From Bacillota bacterium (GTDB lineage: Bacteria > Bacillota > Sulfobacillia > Sulfobacillales > Sulfobacillaceae): 10,401 bases of DNA. Position 1 is the first letter of the stretch. Each line of letters opens with the position of its first letter. Below the pieces are notes generated by a model. The model ran no database searches. It worked only from the letters and a program-made list of their open reading frames with translations, and was not told the origin of the DNA. The stretch covers positions 1-10,401 of the forward strand of contig JAMCTO010000046.1 in assembly GCA_023381095.1 (NCBI GenBank), read 5' to 3'. This document shows, piece after piece, positions 1 through 10,078 of the stretch. The translations under genes were made by a program, and so were the position numbers.

Positions 1-19
1 TCATGGGGGTTGGCCATGA
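1..19 (+). CDS. Possible 3' end of an upstream gene (partial)
   Basis: One reading frame runs in from the left edge and stops at a TGA at 17-19. That TGA overlaps the ATG at 16 of the next gene (ATGA). Such overlap is typical of translationally coupled genes in an operon and fits the tight packing of the following genes. Only about five codons are visible, so nothing can be said about the product, and a chance stop cannot be excluded. Confidence 0.3.
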
Positions 20-378
20 CCGATCACATTGACTGGGTGGCCATTCAAGAGCGGGTTTCCCGGATTTTGGATCAAGGCATGGCCGTGGCTTGTGAGTGTA
101 TTGCCCGTTATCGCCAGGATGTTGAGCGGGTGGCGCAGACGTTGCTAGCACAGGAAACGATACTCTGGGATGCGATGCAAGATCTTTGGAAGCACATTCC
201 TCAAGGACAGTTGCCATCTTTCCCTGATCCCAATGCCTGGACGTATTATAAGCCGCATACTAGTGCGATTTCTTCTGGCATTATTCATGCCTCTCTTACC
301 GCAGTCAAGAAGAAAGGTCGTATGGAAAAGAGGAAAGGGATGGGCACAGAGAGAATACGTCAAAGGTCGATCGTTTAG
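16..378 (+). CDS. Hypothetical protein, probably frameshifted near its C-terminus
   Basis: The function is not recognised. The intact frame from the ATG at 16 gives 120 residues; a TTG at 10 is an alternative start. The first 90 or so residues look like a soluble, helical, mildly acidic protein with heptad-like stretches. From about codon 96 the frame turns into a Lys/Arg/Met-rich tail. A second frame, open from 264, reads instead as a charged tail containing KVDRLEQFLQFEEEFRE and stops at a TAA at 414-416, overlapping the next start at 409. That arrangement matches the overlapping genes around it, so I infer a one-base loss between about 264 and 310, either a mutation or a sequence error. 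The corrected protein would be about 133 residues. No known domain or catalytic motif is visible. Confidence 0.5.
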   Translation: MTDHIDWVAIQERVSRILDQGMAVACECIARYRQDVERVAQTLLAQETILWDAMQDLWKHIPQGQLPSFPDPNAWTYYKPHTSAISSGIIHASLTAVKKKGRMEKRKGMGTERIRQRSIV

Positions 379-408
379 AACAATTCCTACAATTTGAGGA
401 AGAGTTTC

Positions 409-876
409 GTGAGTAATAGAGTGGGTACTGTCGAATGGGATGTGTTGTCGGTGGACGTAGGTCAGAGTTGGATCGGGCCAGCCCGGACTTTTGTTCGGCC
501 GCGGTTAACGATGACTACGTCCACGCACTATGGGCTGGAGACAGACATTGTGGTATGGGCAGCGAGGCCCGGCATGGTATGGGAGCACCGTCACGATCGA
601 GGTTATGTTGAGACGGTGGTATTTTCGTCGACGGGCCGATTGGCCGCATGGACTCCGATTTATATCGCGGGCCAACGCATTCCAATCGAGAAGCGGCATT
701 TGGTCATCCAAGCGGTTAGTCCTAGCGGGGATGCCGGAGATCGGTTGGAGGTGCGACAGGGTATCGCACCCGTCAAGGATTCCGAAACAATGGGACGCAA
801 CGCCTATGACCTGCCGTTTATCGAATATACCCTGTTGTTTGGCTGGAATGGACTCCAGCCGCTGCCGGCAGAGTAA
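409..876 (+). CDS. Hypothetical protein, 155 residues
   Basis: The product is not recognised. I prefer the GTG at 409 as the start because a purine-rich GAGGAAGAG lies just upstream at 396-404; a TTG at 394 is also in frame but would overlap that site. The protein has no visible signal peptide, membrane segment, cysteine or nucleotide-binding motif. It is rich in Val, Trp, Arg and Gly and in alternating hydrophobic residues, suggesting a beta-rich fold. The start overlaps the probable corrected end of the preceding gene (TAA 414-416), and the next ATG follows six bases after its own stop, so the three genes are probably cotranscribed. The frame is intact, unlike its two neighbours. Confidence 0.6.
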   Translation: MSNRVGTVEWDVLSVDVGQSWIGPARTFVRPRLTMTTSTHYGLETDIVVWAARPGMVWEHRHDRGYVETVVFSSTGRLAAWTPIYIAGQRIPIEKRHLVIQAVSPSGDAGDRLEVRQGIAPVKDSETMGRNAYDLPFIEYTLLFGWNGLQPLPAE

Positions 877-882
877 CGGCTG

Positions 883-1281
883 ATGTCAGGCGAAAACCCA
901 AGGGAGAGAATAGTCTCTCTTAGCGGTCACTGGGCTTTGACGCAGTGCCTGGGGACTGATGTTCCGATGCAGGTTGAAGGCCGCCCTTATGTGGTGTGGG
1001 CCACTTTGACAGGTAATGAGTCGGTGGGCACTGAGCTCAACGAGCTAGGGCGTGCGTATCCGGACGTGGCCCGACTCCAATGGGAAGACGCTGTCGTGTC
1101 TCTTGCCAAAATACGACTGACTAGGTTCCATTGGGCAGAGATTATGCGGGGCAAAGCGAGACGAGGGGGGGGGCAATGCCTCTCCGTTAGACGCAGAAGA
1201 CGCGTCTGTCACCCATGCAGCGGTCAACAACGACTCAGAGGGAGAATCGGAAGCAGACCAGTACCCAGAAAGGTCTTCTGA
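883..1281 (+). CDS. Hypothetical protein, frame broken at a G9 run; probable extension to 1411
   Basis: The function is not recognised. The intact frame gives 132 residues. After a run of nine G at 1165-1173 the composition flips to Arg/Cys-rich (RRRRR, CHPC), which looks out of frame. Dropping one G puts translation into a frame that reads a Ser/Asp/Glu-rich acidic tail from 1172 (for example NNDSEGESEADQ, SSEESEDK) and stops at 1409-1411, giving about 175 residues. The last roughly 30 residues of that frame are hydrophobic and may themselves lie beyond the true end. The first 90 residues include a Trp/Val-rich part and a helical part. The ribosome binding site is weak. The start lies six bases after the preceding stop, suggesting coupling. 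Confidence 0.5.
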   Translation: MSGENPRERIVSLSGHWALTQCLGTDVPMQVEGRPYVVWATLTGNESVGTELNELGRAYPDVARLQWEDAVVSLAKIRLTRFHWAEIMRGKARRGGGQCLSVRRRRRVCHPCSGQQRLRGRIGSRPVPRKVF

Positions 1282-1518
1282 AGAGAGCGAGGACAAGACT
1301 GTCATGCAAGAGGGGGCCTATTGGGGAACTGTCGTAATCTGGTTCTTAAATTTTGTGTCTCTCTATTCCCATAATGTACGATCAAGCTTAGTACGGGTTT
1401 GTAATTTTTGAACTTTAACGTAGGCCATTTAGGACGGAAAAAGAATAACCTTCCAAGGCTATTCTCCAGAGCAATTCCCTGATAATCGAGTAAAAAAGTT
1501 CCTCTGGGTTTTCGCACG

Positions 1519-3423
1519 GTGAGAGGCGATGATGGAACATTGCAGACACCGTGGGCAGACTTTGTTCTAAATCGCTTGCGTTCACGCGTCTCTACGCACG
1601 AAGCCCGAGATATGTTGGAAACAATTGCACACGCTCAACGCGAGGCCGTTTTTCTACCATGGCACACCCCGCTCGTTATTGAAGGCGGACCGGGTACTGG
1701 AAAAACTGAAGTTGGGATTTTGCGATTAGTACGCGCACTGGGTGATCCCGAAGCCACGACTAAGTACCGATCGGTATTATGGTTAGTGCCTTCACAAACT
1801 TTTGAAAGTTATTTTACTCCGATGATCGCTCGGGAATTTGGTGCTACTGCCTTCCATACGATGACGCCTAGTCAGTGGCTACAACAACAAGCAGGCCTAA
1901 AACTGTCCGACTTGCATACTCAAGCCGCCCCAATGCGCCATACCCAGGAATGGATGCAATGGATTGCTGAAGCGATCACCGCATGGCGAAATGCGGAAGC
2001 TTCGCGCTTAGTGCAAAAACTGCCACGGAAACGTGAGGCTAAAGAAAAAGATACACAAAGACGGTGGCAATTAGAAATCCCAGATGATATCCTCATACAA
2101 GCCATCCAAGACGCCGCTCACGAATCGCCAGCACAGTGGAAGCAACGAGTGTTTGATGCACTGAACCGACGTATCCAAGCCGTTATCCAGCAAGAGCCTA
2201 TCACAACAAAACATTCGGCCGCATCGGAACAAAAGGTTAGGCGCACGACGGCTGTCAGTACCATAATCTCTCGTTTAGCTAGCGAATGGACCGTGCAATG
2301 GAATGCTCAAGCACTGTATGAAGGACAATTACAGTTGTGGGATCCCCACGCTGTACTGACACCGGATGATTTACCGGCTTTGGTGTGGCTAACTGCCCAG
2401 GGACCCAGCTCTGTGAAGCCCAAGATTCCTGCCGATGTGGTGATTATTGACGAAGGCGAGTTAATTACTCCAGCGTTAGCGGTCGCGCTCCGAGCCTATT
2501 ATAACGCAGCAGCATGGACAGTCATCGGAGATCGTGATCAGTTATCCGACGTACGACCTGCCAATAGCTCGTGGGCAACACTCTTTGACGACACCACGCC
2601 CCCCACCATCGTAACGTTAGAGACCAACTACCGTTCCACACCAGCGATTATTCGATTGCTGAATGCCTTGCGCAGTCGTTGGCGAGCCGACGCTTCCCCA
2701 TGGAAAGCACTGGACTGGGACGACACTCCCGTCACAGGTTGGCTGCATTCCGACCAGTCATCCCAAGTCCAAGCAGTGGTCGAATGGGCTAGAAATCACC
2801 ATATTGCTAATGAAACCGCACTACTTGTCGCCCCGAACTCCGCTCTAGCGCAAACGTGGGCAGACCAACTGGCTCAAGTTGCAGTACCAATAACAGACCT
2901 TACGCATGGCGATCCGTGGCAGCCCCACACTATCGGCATCAGTGTTCCTGGACACATTCATGGGTTGGAATGTGACCATGTCTGGATAGTAGACGCTGAT
3001 TCGGTAAACTATCCCAAATCATCGGCATCGACAGGCTCCCAAACCGCCATTTTGACGAATACGCCCGAATATCTACCAGCCCGCCGATTATACATGGCCG
3101 CAAGCCGGGCCATGCGTACACTGACCGTCAGTGCCGTCAAAGAGACCAGCGAATGGCTTCACCTGTCGGACTCTGGCATTGCGTGGACTTTGTATTGGCC
3201 TCAATTAGAAGGATGGACATGTCTACCTGAAGCCGCTAGCAAAATCGGCATAGCCGAATCGATCTTGGCCAAATGGGTTTCGTCCAAGGCGTGGCCAAGC
3301 CAAAGACGTGGGGCATGGGTTTTTGTGCCGACTTCCATGGTAGACGCGTATAGCACCACTACGATGGCCACTAAGCAACCCTCTGAATCCGAGTCCATGA
3401 TCGGAGAGACTGATGGAGTATGA
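1519..3423 (+). CDS. HelD/UvrD-like superfamily 1 ATPase with C-terminal helix-turn-helix
   Basis: The protein has 634 residues. Superfamily 1 motifs appear in order: Walker A GGPGTGKT (56-63), motif II DEGE (311-314), motif III GDRDQ (337-341), motif IV NYRS (370-373), motif V GLECD (482-486) and motif VI LYMAASRA (524-531). The segment before Walker A (STHEARDMLETIAHAQRE) and the one after it (VPSQTFESYFTPM) recall HelD, the RNA polymerase recycling ATPase, more than UvrD. HelD usually has a long N-terminal coiled-coil arm; here only about 55 residues precede Walker A. Residues 566-613 (LPEAASKIGIAESILAKWV and following) resemble an excisionase/MerR-type helix-turn-helix, an unusual addition. 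Motif II ends in Glu where superfamily 1 usually has Gln. The GTG start has no convincing ribosome binding site, and a stop lies in frame at 1483. The role is inferred: a DNA-targeted translocase or transcription-related motor. Confidence 0.85.
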   Translation: MRGDDGTLQTPWADFVLNRLRSRVSTHEARDMLETIAHAQREAVFLPWHTPLVIEGGPGTGKTEVGILRLVRALGDPEATTKYRSVLWLVPSQTFESYFTPMIAREFGATAFHTMTPSQWLQQQAGLKLSDLHTQAAPMRHTQEWMQWIAEAITAWRNAEASRLVQKLPRKREAKEKDTQRRWQLEIPDDILIQAIQDAAHESPAQWKQRVFDALNRRIQAVIQQEPITTKHSAASEQKVRRTTAVSTIISRLASEWTVQWNAQALYEGQLQLWDPHAVLTPDDLPALVWLTAQGPSSVKPKIPADVVIIDEGELITPALAVALRAYYNAAAWTVIGDRDQLSDVRPANSSWATLFDDTTPPTIVTLETNYRSTPAIIRLLNALRSRWRADASPWKALDWDDTPVTGWLHSDQSSQVQAVVEWARNHHIANETALLVAPNSALAQTWADQLAQVAVPITDLTHGDPWQPHTIGISVPGHIHGLECDHVWIVDADSVNYPKSSASTGSQTAILTNTPEYLPARRLYMAASRAMRTLTVSAVKETSEWLHLSDSGIAWTLYWPQLEGWTCLPEAASKIGIAESILAKWVSSKAWPSQRRGAWVFVPTSMVDAYSTTTMATKQPSESESMIGETDGV

Positions 3424-3449
3424 CAACGAAGGCCAGGATCGTTGACGAT

Positions 3450-3505
3450 GGGCCCAGTCTAGGGAACCGCAAGGCTTGAGGTTTTGGTTCCTTGGGCGTA
3501 GGCCC
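3450..3505 (+). repeat. Imperfect hairpin downstream of the helicase-like gene
   Basis: AGGGAACC at 3461-3468 pairs with GGTTCCTT at 3486-3493 (seven Watson-Crick pairs and one G-T). An outer GGGCC at 3450-3454 pairs with GGCCC at 3501-3505, across an internal loop of six and seven bases. No T-tract follows the structure, so it is not a standard intrinsic terminator. It may still act as a 3' end structure for the upstream gene. Confidence 0.45.
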
Positions 3506-3581
3506 TCGTAATCTTTGCACACCGCTGACAAATCGGGTGCGGAGCGCTTTCGCCCTAATCGAACAGGCACCGTTGACGGCA

Positions 3582-3606
3582 GACCCCGGAATTGTTTCCT
3601 GGGGTC
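3582..3606 (+). repeat. Strong hairpin, 10-bp stem with one bulge
   Basis: GACCCC and GGAA (3582-3591) pair with TTCC and GGGGTC (3596-3606), with a TTGT loop and a single bulged T at 3600. There is no T-tract after it. The structure lies in the gene-free stretch with other inverted repeats. Its function is unknown. Confidence 0.45.
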
Positions 3607-3746
3607 CGTGGTGCCGTGCGGCGCTGGCTCCATACCTGCGCCGAACACCGATCTTTGGGGAGGACGTCCACGCCCCTCTCCCTGCTTCATTGTCCTGCCG
3701 GACTCCACAGCACATCATGAGGTCATCCGTTAGGCGGATCATGCCC

Positions 3747-3884
3747 TTAAAGATTGAGCCCCAAATACACTGCATCGCGGTCTTCCCGGCGAATCCCGAT
3801 ATATGCCAACGTCGTCCCGGAACTGCTGTGATTCAAGATCTGCTGGATAATGACTAAATCCACGCCTGAGGTGTACGCGTGGTA
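3747..3884 (-). pseudogene. C-terminal remnant of a tyrosine recombinase (phage integrase family)
   Basis: The minus strand from 3884 down to a TAA at 3749-3747 reads YHAYTSGVDL, then IIQQILNHSSSGTTLAYIGI, then a short tail ending YLGLNL. This is the classic end of the catalytic domain: the LGHSS-like box with its histidine (codon 3828-3830) and the nucleophilic tyrosine in AYIGI (3801-3803). The arginine box that should lie just upstream (a TLRKTFGYHAY-like sequence in this family) is degenerate, the frame has no start codon and runs back only to a stop near 3986, and the rest of an integrase of about 300 residues is missing. It is therefore inactive. It marks the region as once mobile and may be the integrase of a lost plasmid, phage or integrative element. 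Confidence 0.75.
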
Positions 3885-4257
3885 TCGGGGTTCCTGTAGC
3901 AACCGCCCCGACAACCGGAATAAGCTTGAACCCGTTGCCCCACAACGAATCCCAGGAATGGCTATAGAAACTCAGGGATGCGGAATCGGCGATCACCTGC
4001 CGCCAGTTGGGGTCTTTAGATAACGTCAACAACCTATCTATAACCGCACTTCTGGTCGATAGACGACTTATTCCGATTTTTGGTTCCAATGATACAGAAA
4101 CCCCATTATCCCGCGCGACGGAATGCGACAGTCCATTTGCAGGACCAAACTACTAAGGATCCACGGTGTTGATACAAAAATTCTCCTATTCACGGCGAAT
4201 TCTTGAATCAGGCAATAAATGCCCTGGGATGGTTTTGTTGAGTTCCTGTCGATGGTG
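3885..4257. other. Gene-free region between recombinase remnant and cytochrome gene
   Basis: No coding region can be supported here. A minus-strand frame of 116 codons (4089-3739) overlaps the recombinase remnant out of frame and has no family resemblance. A further minus frame (4274-4068) begins inside the cytochrome gene. No clear terminator for the convergent cytochrome gene and no tRNA were seen. The sequence is probably decayed mobile-element DNA. Confidence 0.35.
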
Positions 4258-4716
4258 CTACTTGCTTTCCGCAATGTGCCAAACGTACGCAGTCACATCC
4301 CGGGATTGTTGATGGCTCAAGGAACCCGGTGCGTTCGCAGGCATCTGTTCCAGAATGAAGGTACGGAGACTGATTTCTGTCTGGAAGCTGCTGGCGACCC
4401 CACTGGGCGCTTCCAACCGTGGGGCGGTTTGGGTTCCAACACCGTTGACTCCGTGGCAAACGGCACACTTGCGACTAAAAAGAGTTTGACCTCGGGCAAT
4501 GGCTTTGGTGTCCACGGCGATTTTGGTGGCGCTGGTAACTTTCTTGTTTTTAGCGTGGTTAGGCTGCTTGGACAGTAAGGGATTTTTGGTATTGTTGACG
4601 GTAACGACTTGGCTAGGCGATTTATGGTGTGTGGGTTGTCTCGCCATGCCACCGCACCCTGCAATCCAAAGGGCGGACCCTACAAGTCCCCCGGCCAGTT
4701 TAATGCTATTGGTCAT
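4258..4716 (-). CDS. Lipoprotein cytochrome c, class I type
   Basis: This is a small membrane-anchored electron carrier of 152 residues. The ATG at 4716 is chosen because GGGAGGA lies seven bases upstream (4724-4730) and it places a signal sequence at the N-terminus; the upstream ATG at 4758 would bury that signal. The lipobox WIAGC predicts lipidation at Cys21. A Lys/Thr/Asn-rich linker (about 22-70) is followed by a heme-binding CAVCH (84-88) and a likely axial Met125 in EQMPANAPGSLS. The protein should sit on the outer face of the cytoplasmic membrane and pass electrons in a respiratory chain; the partner is not shown. The heme domain closely resembles that of the cytochrome at 9222-9578, so the two are paralogues. 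It is transcribed away from the membrane-protein gene at 4909. Confidence 0.9.
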   Translation of the reverse strand: MTNSIKLAGGLVGSALWIAGCGGMARQPTHHKSPSQVVTVNNTKNPLLSKQPNHAKNKKVTSATKIAVDTKAIARGQTLFSRKCAVCHGVNGVGTQTAPRLEAPSGVASSFQTEISLRTFILEQMPANAPGSLSHQQSRDVTAYVWHIAESK

Positions 4717-4758
4717 GAGAATTTCCTCCCTGGCTTTAACCATGTTGGGTTTTATCAT

Positions 4759-4908
4759 GCCCTGGTCCGACGTGGCTATACCGATGCGATATCGATGTAT
4801 AGTTTTTTCCGATATCAGTCATATTGAAGATGACATAAATCCTTCCTTGGCGAGAGTCTGACCCGCAATGGGATTATAGGTGCCAACTAAATTCTTTTAA
4901 GGAGTTGA
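4759..4908. promoter_or_regulatory. Divergent intergenic region with candidate promoter and palindromes
   Basis: This 150-bp stretch separates two divergent genes, so it should hold both promoters. On the minus strand a TATACA (complement of 4796-4801) and a TATAAT (complement of 4873-4878) are possible -10 elements, each without a good -35. The 8-bp palindrome CGATATCG lies at 4787-4794, and a second GATATC at 4811-4816 may be part of an operator. All of these are weak, pattern-based guesses. Confidence 0.3.
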
Positions 4909-5301
4909 ATGGTGGTGAACTGGAGAGGAGCGATTACCCGAACTATTGTGTCCTTTCTTGCCATTTGGGCTTTGAAAGACTCACTTCGTGTCGTTCCTCC
5001 AGTTACTTACGGGGGAATGGCGATTGTTGCGGTCTTGATTGGCGTCATTGGCTATTTGGGTGATGAGGTGTTCGGTGGGTACTTGTCAGCGTATGGAAGA
5101 GGACTGATTGGCTTTGTCGCGGCAGGCGGTGTCTGTAGTGTCTATTTCTCATTTTTCTATGCGCCTAATATGCCCGTCTACCATTACGGGTATCTGTGGA
5201 GCGGTGCAATCGCGGTGGCGGTAGGCCTAGTTGTAGGAATTGCTGACGGTGTTTTGGCCTTTTATATTGATCCCCGGCAGCGGGTACGAGACAAGGATTG
5301 A
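4909..5301 (+). CDS. Four-helix membrane protein, possibly DUF2512/YndM-like
   Basis: This 130-residue protein has about four hydrophobic segments, roughly residues 9-22, 32-52, 62-84 and 94-120, followed by a charged tail (DPRQRVRDKD). AAGGAG at 4899-4904 precedes the start. The spacing is short for ATG 4909 (four bases) and more usual for the in-frame GTG codons at 4912 or 4915, so the true N-terminus may be one or two residues shorter. The size, helix layout and an IGYLGDE segment recall the small DUF2512 membrane proteins of Bacillus, but the likeness is faint. No catalytic residues are evident. The gene stands alone between a divergent cytochrome gene and a separately promoted crotonase gene. 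Confidence 0.75.
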   Translation: MVVNWRGAITRTIVSFLAIWALKDSLRVVPPVTYGGMAIVAVLIGVIGYLGDEVFGGYLSAYGRGLIGFVAAGGVCSVYFSFFYAPNMPVYHYGYLWSGAIAVAVGLVVGIADGVLAFYIDPRQRVRDKD

Positions 5302-5378
5302 AGGCAATTTGCTTCGGTGGAAATTGATAGTATCCGCTTATGGTGCCGTTAATAGGGGCGTCCGCATAAAATCCGCGG

Positions 5379-5384
5379 TATAAT
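5379..5384 (+). promoter_or_regulatory. Candidate -10 element for the crotonase-family gene
   Basis: A perfect TATAAT lies 34 bases before the ATG at 5419. No good -35 hexamer is found at the right spacing (5355-5361 is GC-rich), and no extended TG precedes it, so the promoter may be weak or depend on an activator. Confidence 0.45.
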
Positions 5385-5418
5385 CATCCATATAAACATT
5401 TTCAGCGGAGGGTCATCA

Positions 5419-6081
5419 ATGCGGATTGCTTGCGTCCAGCACCCTTACTGCACAGAAGTGATATTAAACTACCCCCAGGGGCGTAATGCACTAGATACGG
5501 ATGGGTGGCATGCCTTGGCGGAGACAGTGCGCGGGGTTGATAGGACGTTGCCGTTGATGTTCCGGGGGGAAGGAGACCATTTTTGTGCAGGGTTCGATCT
5601 CAAACAATGGAAAACCCTAGATGTGAACCAACGGAGGGACGCCTTACAGGTCATGGAGACGGCGCTAAATCAGGTTCTCGACCATCCGCATTTGACTATA
5701 TCCCGGTTGACTGGAGCGGTGTGGGGCGGTGGGCTGGCGCTGGCTCTCGTCACTGACTGGCGTCAGGCTAGATTGCCGATGACCATCGGACTACCCATGA
5801 TCCGAATGGGGGTGACACCCCCGAACTCGGTGCAAAAGACACTGCGGTTATTGCTAGGGACACGGAAAACAAAATGGCTATTGTGGCGGGGACATCCTAT
5901 CGATGGCAAGGAACTCCGCCAAACAGATTTGGTCGATGATTGGGTACCCGATGGGCCTTGGGGATCCATAGAGTCTGATGCTGCCGATTTAGTGACCAAT
6001 CAAAGCTTTTTTAAGACAGTGCGAGCCGGACGCCCCGAGAAATTTTTGCACGACCACTATCGAGTAGAGAGCGAATCATAG
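5419..6081 (+). CDS. Short crotonase (enoyl-CoA hydratase/isomerase) family protein without catalytic glutamates
   Basis: The protein has 220 residues, shorter than the usual 255-260. GGAGGG at 5407-5412 supports the ATG at 5419. Crotonase features are clear: the NALD segment (23-26), the first oxyanion-hole segment CAGFDL (56-61) and the second, GAVWGGGLALA (99-109). By eye the two hydratase glutamates are missing. The one in the GGGCELA-type motif aligns with Ala107, and the one in the PEV/PEI motif aligns with Met127. Ordinary hydratase chemistry is therefore unlikely, and another acyl-CoA reaction or a non-catalytic role is possible. The C-terminal region is also shortened. No fatty-acid or CoA genes lie beside it. 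Family confidence is high; substrate is unknown. Confidence 0.85.
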   Translation: MRIACVQHPYCTEVILNYPQGRNALDTDGWHALAETVRGVDRTLPLMFRGEGDHFCAGFDLKQWKTLDVNQRRDALQVMETALNQVLDHPHLTISRLTGAVWGGGLALALVTDWRQARLPMTIGLPMIRMGVTPPNSVQKTLRLLLGTRKTKWLLWRGHPIDGKELRQTDLVDDWVPDGPWGSIESDAADLVTNQSFFKTVRAGRPEKFLHDHYRVESES

Positions 6082-6375
6082 CAGAAATTCTACTGTTCAC
6101 CTCCCGTTTTAGACAATTGAGGGAAAAATGTACTGGAACGCGGTTTGGTTTCGTAAAATAGAGCAAACGATTCCCAGAAAATTAGCTCTATTGGGTGATG
6201 CCAAATAGTGCGTTGTCCCTGATAATTGTGAGAAAATTTCATGAAGTAATTCTTGGCAAACGGTTTACTCCCATAGCAAATTCCAGCACATGGTGAAGTG
6301 AGGGGAATATAGGCGTCCCCCTATGAAGTGATCTATTTGCCAAGATTGTGAAATGAGGATCAAAGTTGAGAAAGG
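6082..6375 (+). promoter_or_regulatory. Leader and probable control region of the prk-rpe-cbbX unit
   Basis: This AT-richer, 294-bp gap holds no gene. It contains an 8-bp inverted repeat (AATAGAGC 6157-6164 / GCTCTATT 6185-6192, 20-base loop) and a 10-bp perfect inverted repeat listed separately. A GGGGA/TCCCC and an overlapping ATAGG/CCTAT pair (about 6302-6325) could form alternative hairpins. No strong -35/-10 pair was found; TTGGCA at 6254-6258 and neighbours give no good partner. An activator-dependent promoter, as is common for cbb operons, would fit, but that is inference. Confidence 0.45.
6251..6345. repeat. 10-bp perfect inverted repeat upstream of prk
   Basis: TCTTGGCAAA at 6251-6260 is exactly complementary to TTTGCCAAGA at 6336-6345, with 75 bases between the arms. 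Each arm contains a near-palindromic TTG-N-CAA core, so the arms could be two operator half-sites or two full operators for a looping regulator. They could also close a large leader-RNA domain. CAAATAG at 6202-6208 also pairs with CTATTTG at 6333-6339. Confidence 0.5.
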
Positions 6376-7329
6376 ATGGTCGAGATGGTGGCAAGGCGTC
6401 GGGTGACGATGGTAGGAATTTCGGGAGATAGCGGTGCGGGGAAATCCACCTATGCCGAAGCATTACGGGAAATATTAGGACCCGAACGGGTTTCGGTAAT
6501 CTCTCTAGACGACTATCATTCGCTGGATCGTAATGAACGCAATATGATTGGGGTGACGGCGCTTAATCCATGGAAGGCGAACAATCTTGGCTTGTTGGTC
6601 GATCATGTCTGGGCATTGCGCAATGGCCATACCATTGTTAAACCGACCTACGACCATACTACGGGGATGTTCGGCCCTCCCGAAGAGGTGCGGCCACGCG
6701 ATTTTATTATTTTAGAAGGCTTACACACCCTATATTTGGCGCGTCTTCGAGAAGCCTTGGACTTGAGCGTATATTTTGACACCCATGATGATTTACGGGT
6801 GCAGTGGAAAGTGCGTCGCGACTCAGGGGCTCGAGGGTATACACCTGAAGAGGTTTTGGCCGAGATTGAGCGTCGACGTCCTGATGTAGAACGTTTTATC
6901 GAACCTCAAAAGGCATTTGCTGATATTGTGATTCATTATATGCCGGACTACGAAACAATCCCTTCGTTGGAGAATCCAGAGCCAGTACGGGTTTTGTTTG
7001 CGGAAAGATTGCGCCGAAACAAACGGCGCCTAGTTAAATGGTTGGCGTTGGGCGGTCACTTGGGTCTAATTAAGGCCGATCATCACCACGATACTATTGT
7101 AGGCGAAGAGATGGAGATTGCGACCTTATCAGGGTCCACCCAGCAATCTGCATTGCATTCACTAGTCGAGATGGTATCTGACCGCCATTTGCTAGGAGAT
7201 GAAGTGAAAAGTCACCTTGATGCGCTGCATTATGATCCCGTTAGCGTATCGCGTATACTAGTGGCAAGTATGATTGCGTTTTTAGACCACAGTTTTCGTC
7301 GCGAAGAGTTGATGATTGAGCAACTCTAG
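6376..7329 (+). CDS. prk: Phosphoribulokinase, cyanobacterial-type (class II)
   Basis: PRK phosphorylates ribulose-5-phosphate with ATP to give ribulose-1,5-bisphosphate, the substrate of Rubisco, in the cytoplasm. The P-loop GISGDSGAGKST is at residues 14-25 (numbered from ATG 6376). SLDDYHSLDR (43-52) holds the catalytic Asp, and PTYDHTTG, LEGLHTLY and WKVRRDS follow in the order seen in cyanobacterial and plant enzymes. Where the redox-regulated plant enzyme has GCGKS, this one has GAGKS, so thioredoxin control through that cysteine is absent. The length of 317 fits class II. The in-frame ATG at 6385 has a better ribosome binding site (AAAGGA at 6371-6376, eight bases away) and may be the true start. 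It is the first gene of a unit with rpe and cbbX. Confidence 0.96.
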   Translation: MVEMVARRRVTMVGISGDSGAGKSTYAEALREILGPERVSVISLDDYHSLDRNERNMIGVTALNPWKANNLGLLVDHVWALRNGHTIVKPTYDHTTGMFGPPEEVRPRDFIILEGLHTLYLARLREALDLSVYFDTHDDLRVQWKVRRDSGARGYTPEEVLAEIERRRPDVERFIEPQKAFADIVIHYMPDYETIPSLENPEPVRVLFAERLRRNKRRLVKWLALGGHLGLIKADHHHDTIVGEEMEIATLSGSTQQSALHSLVEMVSDRHLLGDEVKSHLDALHYDPVSVSRILVASMIAFLDHSFRREELMIEQL

Positions 7330-7337
7330 ACTAGAGT
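7323..7337. repeat. 15-bp palindrome over the prk stop codon
   Basis: ACTCTAG-A-CTAGAGT is a perfect odd palindrome that includes the TAG stop of prk (7327-7329). It is too tight for a stable hairpin and has no T-tract. It could be a protein-binding site or chance. Confidence 0.35.
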
Positions 7338-7378
7338 AGCTAAACTTTGCAGGAAAGGAGCTGTTTGGAGGCGACCCA

Positions 7379-7474
7379 GTGACTATGGCGTTTCTGAACA
7401 GGCGTGGCAATGGAATCTTTGCGGTTAATTGCGCCCTCTATCTTATCGGCGAACTTCGCGAAATTGGGCGATGA
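7379..7474 (+). other. Short overlapping reading frame with the best ribosome binding site before rpe
   Basis: A 31-codon frame begins at GTG 7379 (or ATG 7385) after GGAGG at 7367-7371, an ideal seven-base spacing. It stops at 7472-7474 inside rpe, in a different frame. A still smaller frame (TTG 7365 to TGA 7380-7382) overlaps its GTG. It may be a leader that couples rpe to translation, or a sign of an indel at the rpe start. The peptide has no recognisable features. Confidence 0.3.
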
Positions 7475-8093
7475 GGTAACAGAGGTGGTCGGTTATGGAG
7501 CCGATTGGATTCACGTAGATGTGATGGACGGTCAATTTGTGCCGAACATTACGATGGGGCCAATTGTTGTCGAGTGGCTAAAAACGGTTACTCCTACACC
7601 GTTAGACGTGCATTTGATGATCGTGGCGCCGGAAGCCTATATTCCGGACTTTATCAAGGCAGGCGCTAGCAGCATATCGTTTCATGCGGAAGCAACTCCT
7701 CATATTCACCGGACATTACAGGTCATTCGAGAAGCCAATGTACGGGCAGGGGTGGCCTTGAATCCCTCAACACCTCTCAATGTGCTGGAGTATATCTTGG
7801 ACGATTTGGACTTTGTTTTAATAATGACCGTGAACCCAGGGTTTGGCGGACAAAAATTTATTCCCGCCACAGTACCAAAAGTCCAGAAACTTCGAGAATG
7901 GCTCGATGCGACTGGTCATGCTGAGGTGCTGATTGAGGTGGACGGTGGTATTAATGTAACAACCGCCGGTGTGATGAGCGAAGCTGGTGCCAACGCATTT
8001 GTGGCGGGAAGTGCCATCTTCGGCGTACACAACCGCCAGATCATAATCAAGCAAATGCGGCAAGCAATTGACACCGCTGCACCACGGCTATAA
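7404..8093 (+). CDS. rpe: Ribulose-phosphate 3-epimerase
   Basis: Rpe interconverts D-ribulose-5-phosphate and D-xylulose-5-phosphate in the Calvin cycle and the pentose phosphate pathway. The 229-residue TIM barrel shows the family motifs in order: IAPSILSANF (9-18), the metal-binding WIHVDVMDG with His37 and Asp39, VHLMI with His70, VNPGFGGQKF, and VDGGIN with catalytic Asp180. Length is normal (about 220-230). The start is uncertain: GTG 7404 and ATG 7410 are both in frame, with only AGG at 7400-7402 as a binding site, while the stronger GGAGG further upstream points into another frame. Lying between prk and cbbX, it probably serves to regenerate ribulose-5-phosphate during CO2 fixation. 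Confidence 0.96.
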   Translation: MAMESLRLIAPSILSANFAKLGDEVTEVVGYGADWIHVDVMDGQFVPNITMGPIVVEWLKTVTPTPLDVHLMIVAPEAYIPDFIKAGASSISFHAEATPHIHRTLQVIREANVRAGVALNPSTPLNVLEYILDDLDFVLIMTVNPGFGGQKFIPATVPKVQKLREWLDATGHAEVLIEVDGGINVTTAGVMSEAGANAFVAGSAIFGVHNRQIIIKQMRQAIDTAAPRL

Positions 8094-8100
8094 CCGATGG

Positions 8101-8115
8101 CCCATTCATAATGGG
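8101..8115 (+). repeat. Small hairpin in the rpe-cbbX gap
   Basis: CCCATT (8101-8106) and AATGGG (8110-8115) form a 6-bp stem with a three-base CAT loop just before the cbbX start. There is no T-tract. It could affect RNA stability or access to the cbbX ribosome binding region (GGGGCGTGAG, 8122-8131). Confidence 0.35.
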
Positions 8116-8133
8116 GACGATGGGGCGTGAGCA

Positions 8134-9033
8134 ATGACAGACGAACTATATCGAGTTGAAGACACTGTAGACTTTGATCAAGCACTCAACGAATCTCATG
8201 TGTTGGAGATACTGGCACAATTGGATCAAGACTTGGTGGGTCTTTATCCGGTAAAAACCCGAATTCGCGAAATTGCTGCGCTATTATTGGTTGATCAATT
8301 GCGGCGACGGCTAAATTTGTCGGCGGAACCGCCATCATTGCATATGTCTTTTACCGGAAACCCTGGCACCGGAAAAACCACAGTAGCTATGCGCATGGCA
8401 GAGATATTGCACCGTTTGGGGTACTCGCGCAAGGGACATCTGGTAGCCGTGACTCGCGATGACTTAGTAGGGCAGTACATTGGACATACAGCGCCGAAGA
8501 CAAAAGAAGTGCTTAAGCGTGCGATGGGCGGAGTATTGTTCATTGATGAGGCCTACTATCTATATCGTCAGGAAAATGAGCGGGATTACGGCCAAGAAAC
8601 CATCGAAATCCTTCTTCAGGTGATGGAAAATCAACGCGACGATTTAGTGGTTATTTTAGCAGGATACAAAGATCGCATGGAGCAGTTTTTTAAATCAAAT
8701 CCAGGAATCCGGTCACGAATTGCCCATCATGTCGATTTTCCGGATTATGGCGAAGATGAGCTGTTGGCCATTGGGGAACTCATGCTGGCACAGCAACATT
8801 ATGAATTAAGTGCCGAGGCCAAGGATGCCTTAGGCCAGTATATAGCGAGGCGGCGGCAACAGCCAGACTTTGCCAACGCTCGGAGTATACGCAATGCTTT
8901 AGACCGTGCGCGTTTGCGTCAGGCCAATCGGCTATTTGCCAAGGGCGGGCAGGTTTCCCGAAAAGAATTAATGACATTGGAACCGGAAGATTTCTTCACG
9001 AGCCGGGTTTTTCAGATGCCGATGACTCACTAA
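8134..9033 (+). CDS. cbbX: CbbX, AAA+ activase of red-type Rubisco
   Basis: CbbX is a hexameric AAA+ ATPase that remodels inhibited red-type form I Rubisco by pulling on the C-terminus of its large subunit, releasing bound sugar phosphates. The 299-residue length fits the family. Walker A GNPGTGKT is at 75-82, the pore-loop segment [11 protein letters not shown] begins at 115, Walker [13 protein letters not shown] has Asp138-Glu139, [19 protein letters not shown] follows, and the arginine-finger region [15 protein letters not shown] starts at 191. These stretches are almost those of proteobacterial CbbX, which separates it from SpoVK, the sporulation relative. It is the third gene of the prk-rpe unit and is followed by a strong terminator. 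Rubisco genes are not in the window and should exist elsewhere in the genome. Confidence 0.96.
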
Positions 9034-9116: not shown

Positions 9117-9221
9117 CGTGGGAAAAATTCAGCGCGAGGATATTCGGGGAGCTTGTGATAAGATGGGCAGCAAAGCATTTGCTTGCCTTAAGATTTGCTT
9201 ACGAAAGGTGGAGAACAACGA

Positions 9222-9578
9222 ATGAAGGCGTGGTTGGTGGGTTTAGGACTGTTACCGTTGCTCTTGGCGGGATGCGGACAGGCATCTTCAAACGGTGCGA
9301 CAAATTCTACGGTGCAATATGATGCGGCATTGGTATCCCAAGGGCGGACACTGTTCTCGACGACTTGTTACGTATGCCATGGGAAAAATGGACAGGGCAA
9401 TACCGGACCTGCACTATGGGGACCCAACTCATCCGTTCAAGGCTTTTCCCAGTTCAGTGATTTAGAGCAGTTCATTCAAGCGAATATGCCGCAAAATAAT
9501 CCTGGATCATTGTCACCGACACAAGCCCTGGCTGCAGCCTCATTTTTATGGAAACAAAATCATCGCCACGGCAGCTAA
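9222..9578 (+). CDS. Small lipoprotein cytochrome c, class I type
   Basis: This 118-residue electron carrier is chosen from ATG 9222, which has AAGGTGGAG at 9205-9213 in the right place; the upstream TTG at 9195 would lie before the binding site. The signal peptide ends in LLAGC, predicting lipidation at Cys18. The heme motif CYVCH is at 49-53, and the likely axial Met89 is in NMPQNNPGSLS. The heme domain shares the GxTLFSxxCxVCHGxNGxG pattern and the MPxNxPGSLS motif with the protein at 4258-4716 but has a much shorter linker. It probably works on the outer face of the cytoplasmic membrane. The terminator upstream means it needs its own promoter; a TAAGAT at 9159-9164 is a weak -10 candidate. 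Confidence 0.9.
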   Translation: MKAWLVGLGLLPLLLAGCGQASSNGATNSTVQYDAALVSQGRTLFSTTCYVCHGKNGQGNTGPALWGPNSSVQGFSQFSDLEQFIQANMPQNNPGSLSPTQALAAASFLWKQNHRHGS

Positions 9579-9850: not shown

Positions 9851-10078
9851 ATGGGGACGAGGATGGAAGCCAAGGGAAGTACCACTCTATCCAGTGGAGC
9901 AAAGTCCCGTAAGTACCTGCGGGAAGTCCGGTCAGAGCTGAAAAAGGTGGTTTGGCCAACGCCGAAACAGACACTGTCATACACAGGGTTTGTTGTCGGG
10001 TTTTCCTTACTTGTGGCTCTTATCATTGCCGGTCTTGACGCAATCTTCAACCTAGGGCTCAACCTGTTTATCCGCTGA
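9851..10078 (+). CDS. secE: Preprotein translocase subunit SecE
   Basis: SecE is an essential membrane part of the SecYEG channel and stabilises SecY. The 75-residue protein is the short single-helix form. An N-terminal charged region leads into the family signature VRSELKKVVWPTPKQT (residues 26-41), then one membrane segment (about 46-70). The start is either ATG 9851 or the in-frame ATG 9863, which has GGGGA at 9853-9857 just ahead; both give sensible proteins. It lies between rpmG and nusG as in most bacteria. Confidence 0.95.
   Translation: MGTRMEAKGSTTLSSGAKSRKYLREVRSELKKVVWPTPKQTLSYTGFVVGFSLLVALIIAGLDAIFNLGLNLFIR

Follow-up and report, generated by a model that had tools for sequence, protein, structure and literature searches.

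HelD proteins enter the secondary channel of RNA polymerase with an N-terminal domain, or arm, which comprises the first 203 residues of Bacillus subtilis HelD (PMC7749167) and residues 1-144 of Mycobacterium smegmatis HelD, in whose structure it makes a large contribution to the contact with the polymerase (PMC7749160). According to PMC8655204, the three described HelD classes all carry this arm, its DWR motif is absolutely conserved, and HelD has neither the 1B nor the 2B domain found in UvrD. In vitro, protection of the polymerase from rifampicin was lost when B. subtilis HelD was made without its N-terminal domain (PMC12802891); a change of function is therefore to be expected where the arm is missing, and an armless protein cannot be assumed to act like HelD. 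We analyzed a 10,401-nucleotide window, which is the entire contig C46 (JAMCTO010000046.1) of a Sulfobacillaceae genome assembled in 326 contigs and 63.67% complete. The gene at 1519-3423 on its plus strand is predicted to encode a HelD-type motor that has no arm and carries an extension at its C terminus.

The open reading frame (ORF) starts with GTG and specifies 634 residues. The Walker A motif, GGPGTGKT, occupies residues 56-63 (1684-1707), leaving 55 residues ahead of it, the number that a first-pass annotation of the sequence had estimated when it described a HelD-like ATPase without the arm but with an added helix-turn-helix (HTH). In-frame TGA and TAA codons at 1480-1485, just upstream, make a longer in-frame N terminus impossible, and an alternative start was thereby ruled out.

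To classify the motor, we compared the protein with profiles of HelD and PcrA. The HelD profile (38 rows, 37 of them different because two are identical) matched in a single stretch at 187.5 bits, profile positions 157-684 of 700 aligning with residues 11-548, and still gave 161.0 bits when the nearest group of seven was removed. The best of 200 shuffled sequences reached 7.9 bits with the full profile and 9.0 bits with the reduced one, and the PcrA profile (8 rows) gave 9.9 bits on the query. Since the HelD rows had been collected by likeness to this protein, the scores are tilted towards HelD, but the gap to PcrA is still large. The comparison of HelD with UvrD-type profiles that had been proposed as a check thus favored HelD.

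The remaining superfamily 1 (SF1) motifs were located by alignment: motif II, DEGE, residues 311-314 (2449-2460); motif III, GDRDQ, residues 337-341 (2527-2541); motif IV, NYRST, residues 370-374 (2626-2640); motif V, GLECD, residues 482-486 (2962-2976); and motif VI, SRA, residues 529-531 (3103-3111). Among the 45 columns in residues 12-548 that are common to at least 95% of the 37 HelD rows, 30 are kept in the query (including G56, G59, G61, K62, T63, D311, E312, D338, Q341, R372, G482, E484, and R530), 12 are changed, and 3 are gapped. Substitutions occur, among other places, in motif II (Q314E), next to motif V (K481H), and in motif VI (T529S); the fourth place of motif II is Q in at least 95% of the 37 HelD rows, and five rows of the nearest group read DEGQ. 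Motif V lies 111 residues beyond motif IV. This spacing is 79-138 residues in HelD (the 20 of 38 rows in which our patterns caught both motifs) and 276-283 residues in PcrA (8 of 8 rows), indicating that the query has no room for the 2B domain of UvrD/PcrA.

Several matches favor an alternative, a genuine SF1 DNA helicase like UvrD/PcrA or like GajB of Gabija. The Pfam models AAA_30 and AAA_19 scored above their cut-offs (UvrD_C stayed under its own), UvrD topped the structural matches when these were ranked by Z, and PADLOC models of GajB matched with expect values (E) down to 3e-7. In NCBIfam, RecD2 reached 29.1 bits, ranking after the HelR/HelD models (36.2, 35.7, and 34.2 bits, all far below cut-offs of 750-1100), and PcrA reached 18.2 bits. 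However, no GajB match extended over more than about 145 residues, the PcrA profile found little, and the missing 2B domain refutes the UvrD reading. The only PDB sequences matched at E < 0.01 were two HelD sequences, and Foldseek ranks 1-7 were all HelD, with alignments spanning 590-628 columns. GajA, the partner with which GajB works, was not found; the Pfam scan of nine other ORFs showed nothing nuclease-like, the contig ending 1.5 kb upstream of the gene. The three ORFs upstream also had no PADLOC match (the downstream genes lay outside that scan), and a defence role, one of those first envisaged, gained no support. We regard a helicase of either kind as very unlikely. Taken together, these comparisons establish that the predicted protein is a strongly diverged HelD-type motor with domains 1A and 2A and no 2B.

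We then examined the N-terminal side. Nothing in the query corresponds to the first 156 positions of the HelD profile, which cover the secondary-channel arm region; the match begins at residue 11, which corresponds to profile position 157 of 700, so that residues 11-55 (1549-1683) are the counterpart of the linker between the HelD arm and Walker A. An arm encoded elsewhere in the window, including just upstream, where the first-pass annotation had placed the case against itself, was looked for and rejected: tblastn with nine HelD arms gave 27 matches, the best at E 0.085, and a profile of nine arms gave at best E 0.21 on the three upstream ORFs and 1.5 bits on 213 frames of the window. The same arm profile matched 80 of 80 HelD loci, the best 80 of 294 genome-contig stretches encoding a relative, with a weakest E of 4e-13; six of its nine arms had been taken from these loci.

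When the count begins at the first ATG or GTG in the open frame, at least 148 residues precede Walker A at 79 of the 80 loci. The other, L132, has 81 residues, but arm sequence lies just upstream in another frame. Apparent values of 81-92 residues at L006, L070, and L203 were an artefact of taking the first ATG; longer frames were found for L070 and L006, and the open frame of L203 has 806 codons. In the nearest HelD group (f33), 212 residues precede Walker A in all seven rows. The DWR motif is also absent from the query. W12 was tried as a remnant of its Trp and dropped: MAFFT pairs the two, and the profile puts residues 10-11 onward in the linker. Separately, some of the armed HelD proteins in our set (L002, L034, L061, and L068) themselves depart from DWR, with PW, HW, NW, or KW at the motif. 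Absence of the secondary-channel arm region from the predicted protein is thus established by its sequence.

Between Walker A and motif II, an insert of about 177 residues (residues 124-300; 1888-2418), mostly helical in the AlphaFold model, corresponds in position to the clamp arm of HelD or to the UvrD 1B domain, the divergence being too great to tell which. A HelD variant could still act on RNA polymerase through this insert alone, with the C-terminal tail replacing the arm as anchor. The place of the insert, the 590-628 columns of the Foldseek alignments, and the fact that HelD alone among the families compared has this motor layout are consistent with such a protein. Against it, the HelD profile gave the insert alone 5.0 bits, a score equalled by 15 of 500 shuffles, and the N-terminal domain provides a large share of the polymerase contact in M. 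smegmatis (PMC7749160). On balance, we consider action on the polymerase in this way unlikely.

At the other end of the protein, the last residue matched by the HelD profile is 548, at position 684 of the 700 in the profile, leaving an 86-residue extension, residues 549-634 (3163-3420). Residues 566-613 (3214-3357) had been likened to an excisionase/MerR HTH, and we searched with the last 75-79 residues alone. Pfam gave nothing significant (best HTH_3, E 0.15, 12.6 bits against a cut-off of 23), nor did NCBIfam (best IS66 TnpA, E 0.054) or PHROGs (best a DNA-binding protein, E 0.36), and the PDB gave no match; the lack of a significant HTH match in the three profile libraries is an outcome that the first-pass annotation had itself named as speaking against the domain. 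A weak signal was nevertheless obtained with hhalign and an HTH_17 profile of 19 domains from related genomes. The tail aligned in register over 41 columns (tail residues 16-56), with 24% identity to the lead sequence of the profile. The score of 20.9 (probability 29.7) was reached by none of 500 shuffles (best 18.9) and none of 800 real 79-residue windows drawn from HelD and PcrA proteins (best 17.7), in a test that was not blind, the family having been picked because the likeness had already been noted. With hmmsearch, the same profile gave the tail 2.9 bits, equalled by 22 of 2000 shuffles.

AlphaFold placed helices at residues 570-575 and 580-587, a strand at 600-602, and a helix at 605-615, with a predicted local distance difference test (pLDDT) score of 32-49; MerR/excisionase domains run helix, helix, strand, helix. 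A single-sequence AlphaFold model of the protein was unusable (pLDDT 34). The tail alone, searched against 61 genomes, found nothing besides itself at E of 0.001 or less (best 0.012), and one match from the tail search, put through Pfam, gave nothing. We give a real HTH in the tail about an even chance, and its identity as a DNA-binding, possibly HTH_17/MerR-like winged HTH is suggestive. If it were real, the protein could represent a fourth natural HelD architecture, in which the arm has been swapped for a MerR/excisionase-like DNA-binding tail that aims the motor at a DNA site. The task of such a protein would be to strip away transcription complexes, stalled or foreign, at a single place on a mobile element and not from any polymerase. 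We hold this specific form of the idea to be distinctly unlikely.

The protein is present in a single copy in its own genome, as judged by protein search. Two overlapping sets of other genomes gave matches at E 0.001, in 7 of 60 and in 22 of 153 members, and the best relative has 26% identity (E 4e-25). At 21 relative loci that we inspected, the open frames have 647-850 codons and Walker A begins at residue 169-353; in G130:C49, it lies at residue 243 of the frame. G109:C127 and G130:C68 are sliced by a contig edge, and their arm state is not readable. No armless relative was seen in overlapping sets of 61, 154, and 398 genomes, the last searched at E 1e-8; at that threshold the 397 other genomes of the phylum yielded only one match, which was already known. 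Genome contigs searched with the protein alone gave no close relative. No homologue sharing the armless layout and the tail was therefore found in these searches.

A model of B. subtilis HelD (E 1e-20) detected HelD in none of five genomes of the genus, the source genome included, but it also missed the HelD-like genes of G012 and G025, so that absence from the genus is not proved by this search. PcrA-type matches, which scored 821-885 bits and thus stayed below the model cut-off of 911, were present in all nine genomes searched. In the tree, the query grouped with the f33 HelD proteins (support 96/97) on a branch 3.34 long, a grouping for which the program warns that long branches meet; the highest identity to the query in the tree alignment was 23%. 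The description of a HelD-like motor without the arm was thus upheld by the profile, the alignment, the tree, and the search for an arm throughout the window.

We next compared the surroundings of the gene with those in G003, the one same-genus genome against which they were judged. Two parts of the window, 4258-6138 and 6266-8432, have collinear counterparts on contig C165 of G003 (81% and 85% identity). The motor gene and the DNA upstream of 4258 are missing from this contig, apart from a 57-base match elsewhere on it; in their stead it has genes that, read off their translations, presumably form a terminal oxidase set. The 827 bp that follow the gene (3424-4250) are a patchwork of repeats, to which 17 of 40 other genomes have matches. 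At approximately 3753-3879, the minus strand carries the 3' end of a gene for a tyrosine recombinase; the gene is broken upstream of this piece, and related genomes hold many copies (71-92% identity). Two open relatives, L163 and L165, match Pfam Phage_integrase (E 4e-28 and 2e-27). The remnant of a DDE transposase end, which we take to be IS630-like, lies at 3558-3664. It has another copy in the same genome (C296) and several in the genus, and its relative at L168 matches DDE_3 and HTH_23. Further dispersed repeats at 3886-4120, including a piece of about 38 bases, recur in many genomes, mostly at 85-92% identity.

The locus is therefore variable and shaped by mobile elements, and the motor gene may have arrived with one of them. 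The proposal that the gene is element-encoded has circumstantial support from the recombinase and transposase remnants within 827 bp and by the absence of the block from the collinear G003 contig; no carrier was found. Phages and plasmids gave no match to the protein, viral contigs none to the protein or by protein alignment, and plasmids none to window DNA 1-5400. The ORF at 394-876 likewise had no match in phages, plasmids, or viral contigs, nor did the ORF at 10-378 in viral contigs and plasmids, the two collections searched with it. With no phage, plasmid, or viral contig found holding the gene, a phage or plasmid gene was rejected.

Upstream of the motor gene, the plus-strand ORF at 394-876 encodes 160 residues of no known family. 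Its one relative in 60 other genomes is in G032, of another genus (L033:1873-2370, 31% identity), and no helicase neighbors it there on either side, the contig ending after 1.9 kb on one of them. A search with the plus-strand ORF at 883-1281 produced nothing below E 0.002. Nine consecutive G (1165-1173) stand ahead of another open frame on this strand, 1181-1411, with the look of an acidic tail; a frameshift or an error in sequencing may have divided the ORF. A plus-strand frame open at the contig edge (1-378) looks like the C-terminal part of an M41 protease of the FtsH type, with a Pfam E of 9e-4 that does not reach the cut-off. Promoter-like and terminator-like sites in 1-4300 numbered 3 and 5, against 3.6 and 4.0 in shuffles, and so showed no excess; Rfam found nothing in the window. 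Downstream, 6376-9033 on the plus strand holds a phosphoribulokinase-family gene followed by two more genes, one of them an AAA gene, and is largely collinear in G003; we assume that a ribulose-phosphate epimerase is encoded here and that the AAA gene is CbbX. Two small cytochrome c-like proteins, at 4258-4758 (minus strand) and 9195-9578 (plus strand), have what we take to be lipoprotein-like starts, and the ORF at 9851-10078 is presumably secE-like.

Broken mobile-element genes in the neighborhood also fit a different history, in which an acquired HelD gene lost its 5' part and now specifies a useless or decaying product whose C-terminal extension is a chance read-out. The unusual glutamate in motif II, the pLDDT of 32-49 for the tail, and the failure to find a relative with the same layout agree with such a relic. 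It is harder to reconcile with 634 open codons and with nucleotide-binding residues kept at an identity of at most 23% in the tree alignment; divergence this strong with the motifs retained would speak for long selection. A relic, although the main rival, seems improbable to us.

The reading we favor, tentatively and at slightly below an even chance, is a HelD-derived nucleoside triphosphatase (NTPase) motor without the secondary-channel arm, targeted by its 86-residue tail, by the insert, or by both, and encoded by an accessory gene in a mobile-element stretch. Judging from the nucleotide-binding motifs that are kept, the diverged motor would hydrolyze nucleoside triphosphate. It could presumably not anchor in the secondary channel of RNA polymerase; the tail, possibly a DNA-binding winged helix of the MerR/excisionase type, and/or the insert at residues 124-300 may bring it to its target, where it might push proteins or transcription complexes off the DNA. 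Recruitment to DNA or to a protein by tail and insert is thus the role that we infer to be likeliest. The gene would be accessory, lying within a stretch shaped by mobile elements, and not a housekeeping factor of the genus.

If this is true, a natural armless motor would separate the NTPase engine from the polymerase plug and would allow one to test the engine by itself and to ask whether HelD motors were re-aimed to DNA. The whole case is one sequence from a 64%-complete genome, and its value is that of a lead. Among the literature matches listed, judged by titles and the starts of abstracts, we found no natural armless HelD and no HelD with a C-terminal HTH, and the terms 'truncat', 'lack', 'HTH', and 'helix-turn-helix' are absent from PMC8655204.

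Compared with known systems, the protein shares the SF1A motor fold with UvrD/PcrA/Rep and GajB, of which PcrA carries the 2B insert. Its tail aligns in register with HTH_17 (excisionase/MerR-like) domains over tail residues 16-56, with no significant library match. With HelD of classes I-III (B. subtilis, 6WVK; M. smegmatis, 6YXU), it has in common the 1A/2A motor, the conserved Q40, motifs I-VI, a linker of the HelD type ahead of Walker A, a long insert that separates Walker A from motif II, and the lack of 2B; it differs in having no secondary-channel arm region, an 86-residue extension, DEGE in motif II, and at most 23% identity. The nearest proteins in sequence and tree are the armed HelD of f33, another family of the same taxonomic class (L034, L035, L036, and L038-L041); these differ in having 212 residues before Walker A (7 of 7) and no comparable tail (five rows inspected). 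Like HelD-delta-N, the laboratory truncation of the B. subtilis protein described in PMC12802891, it is a motor without the N-terminal domain, but it is natural, very diverged, and provided with an added C-terminal tail. The HelD motor type is already known; what appears to be new here, as read from the sequence, is a natural armless HelD-type motor with a C-terminal extension.
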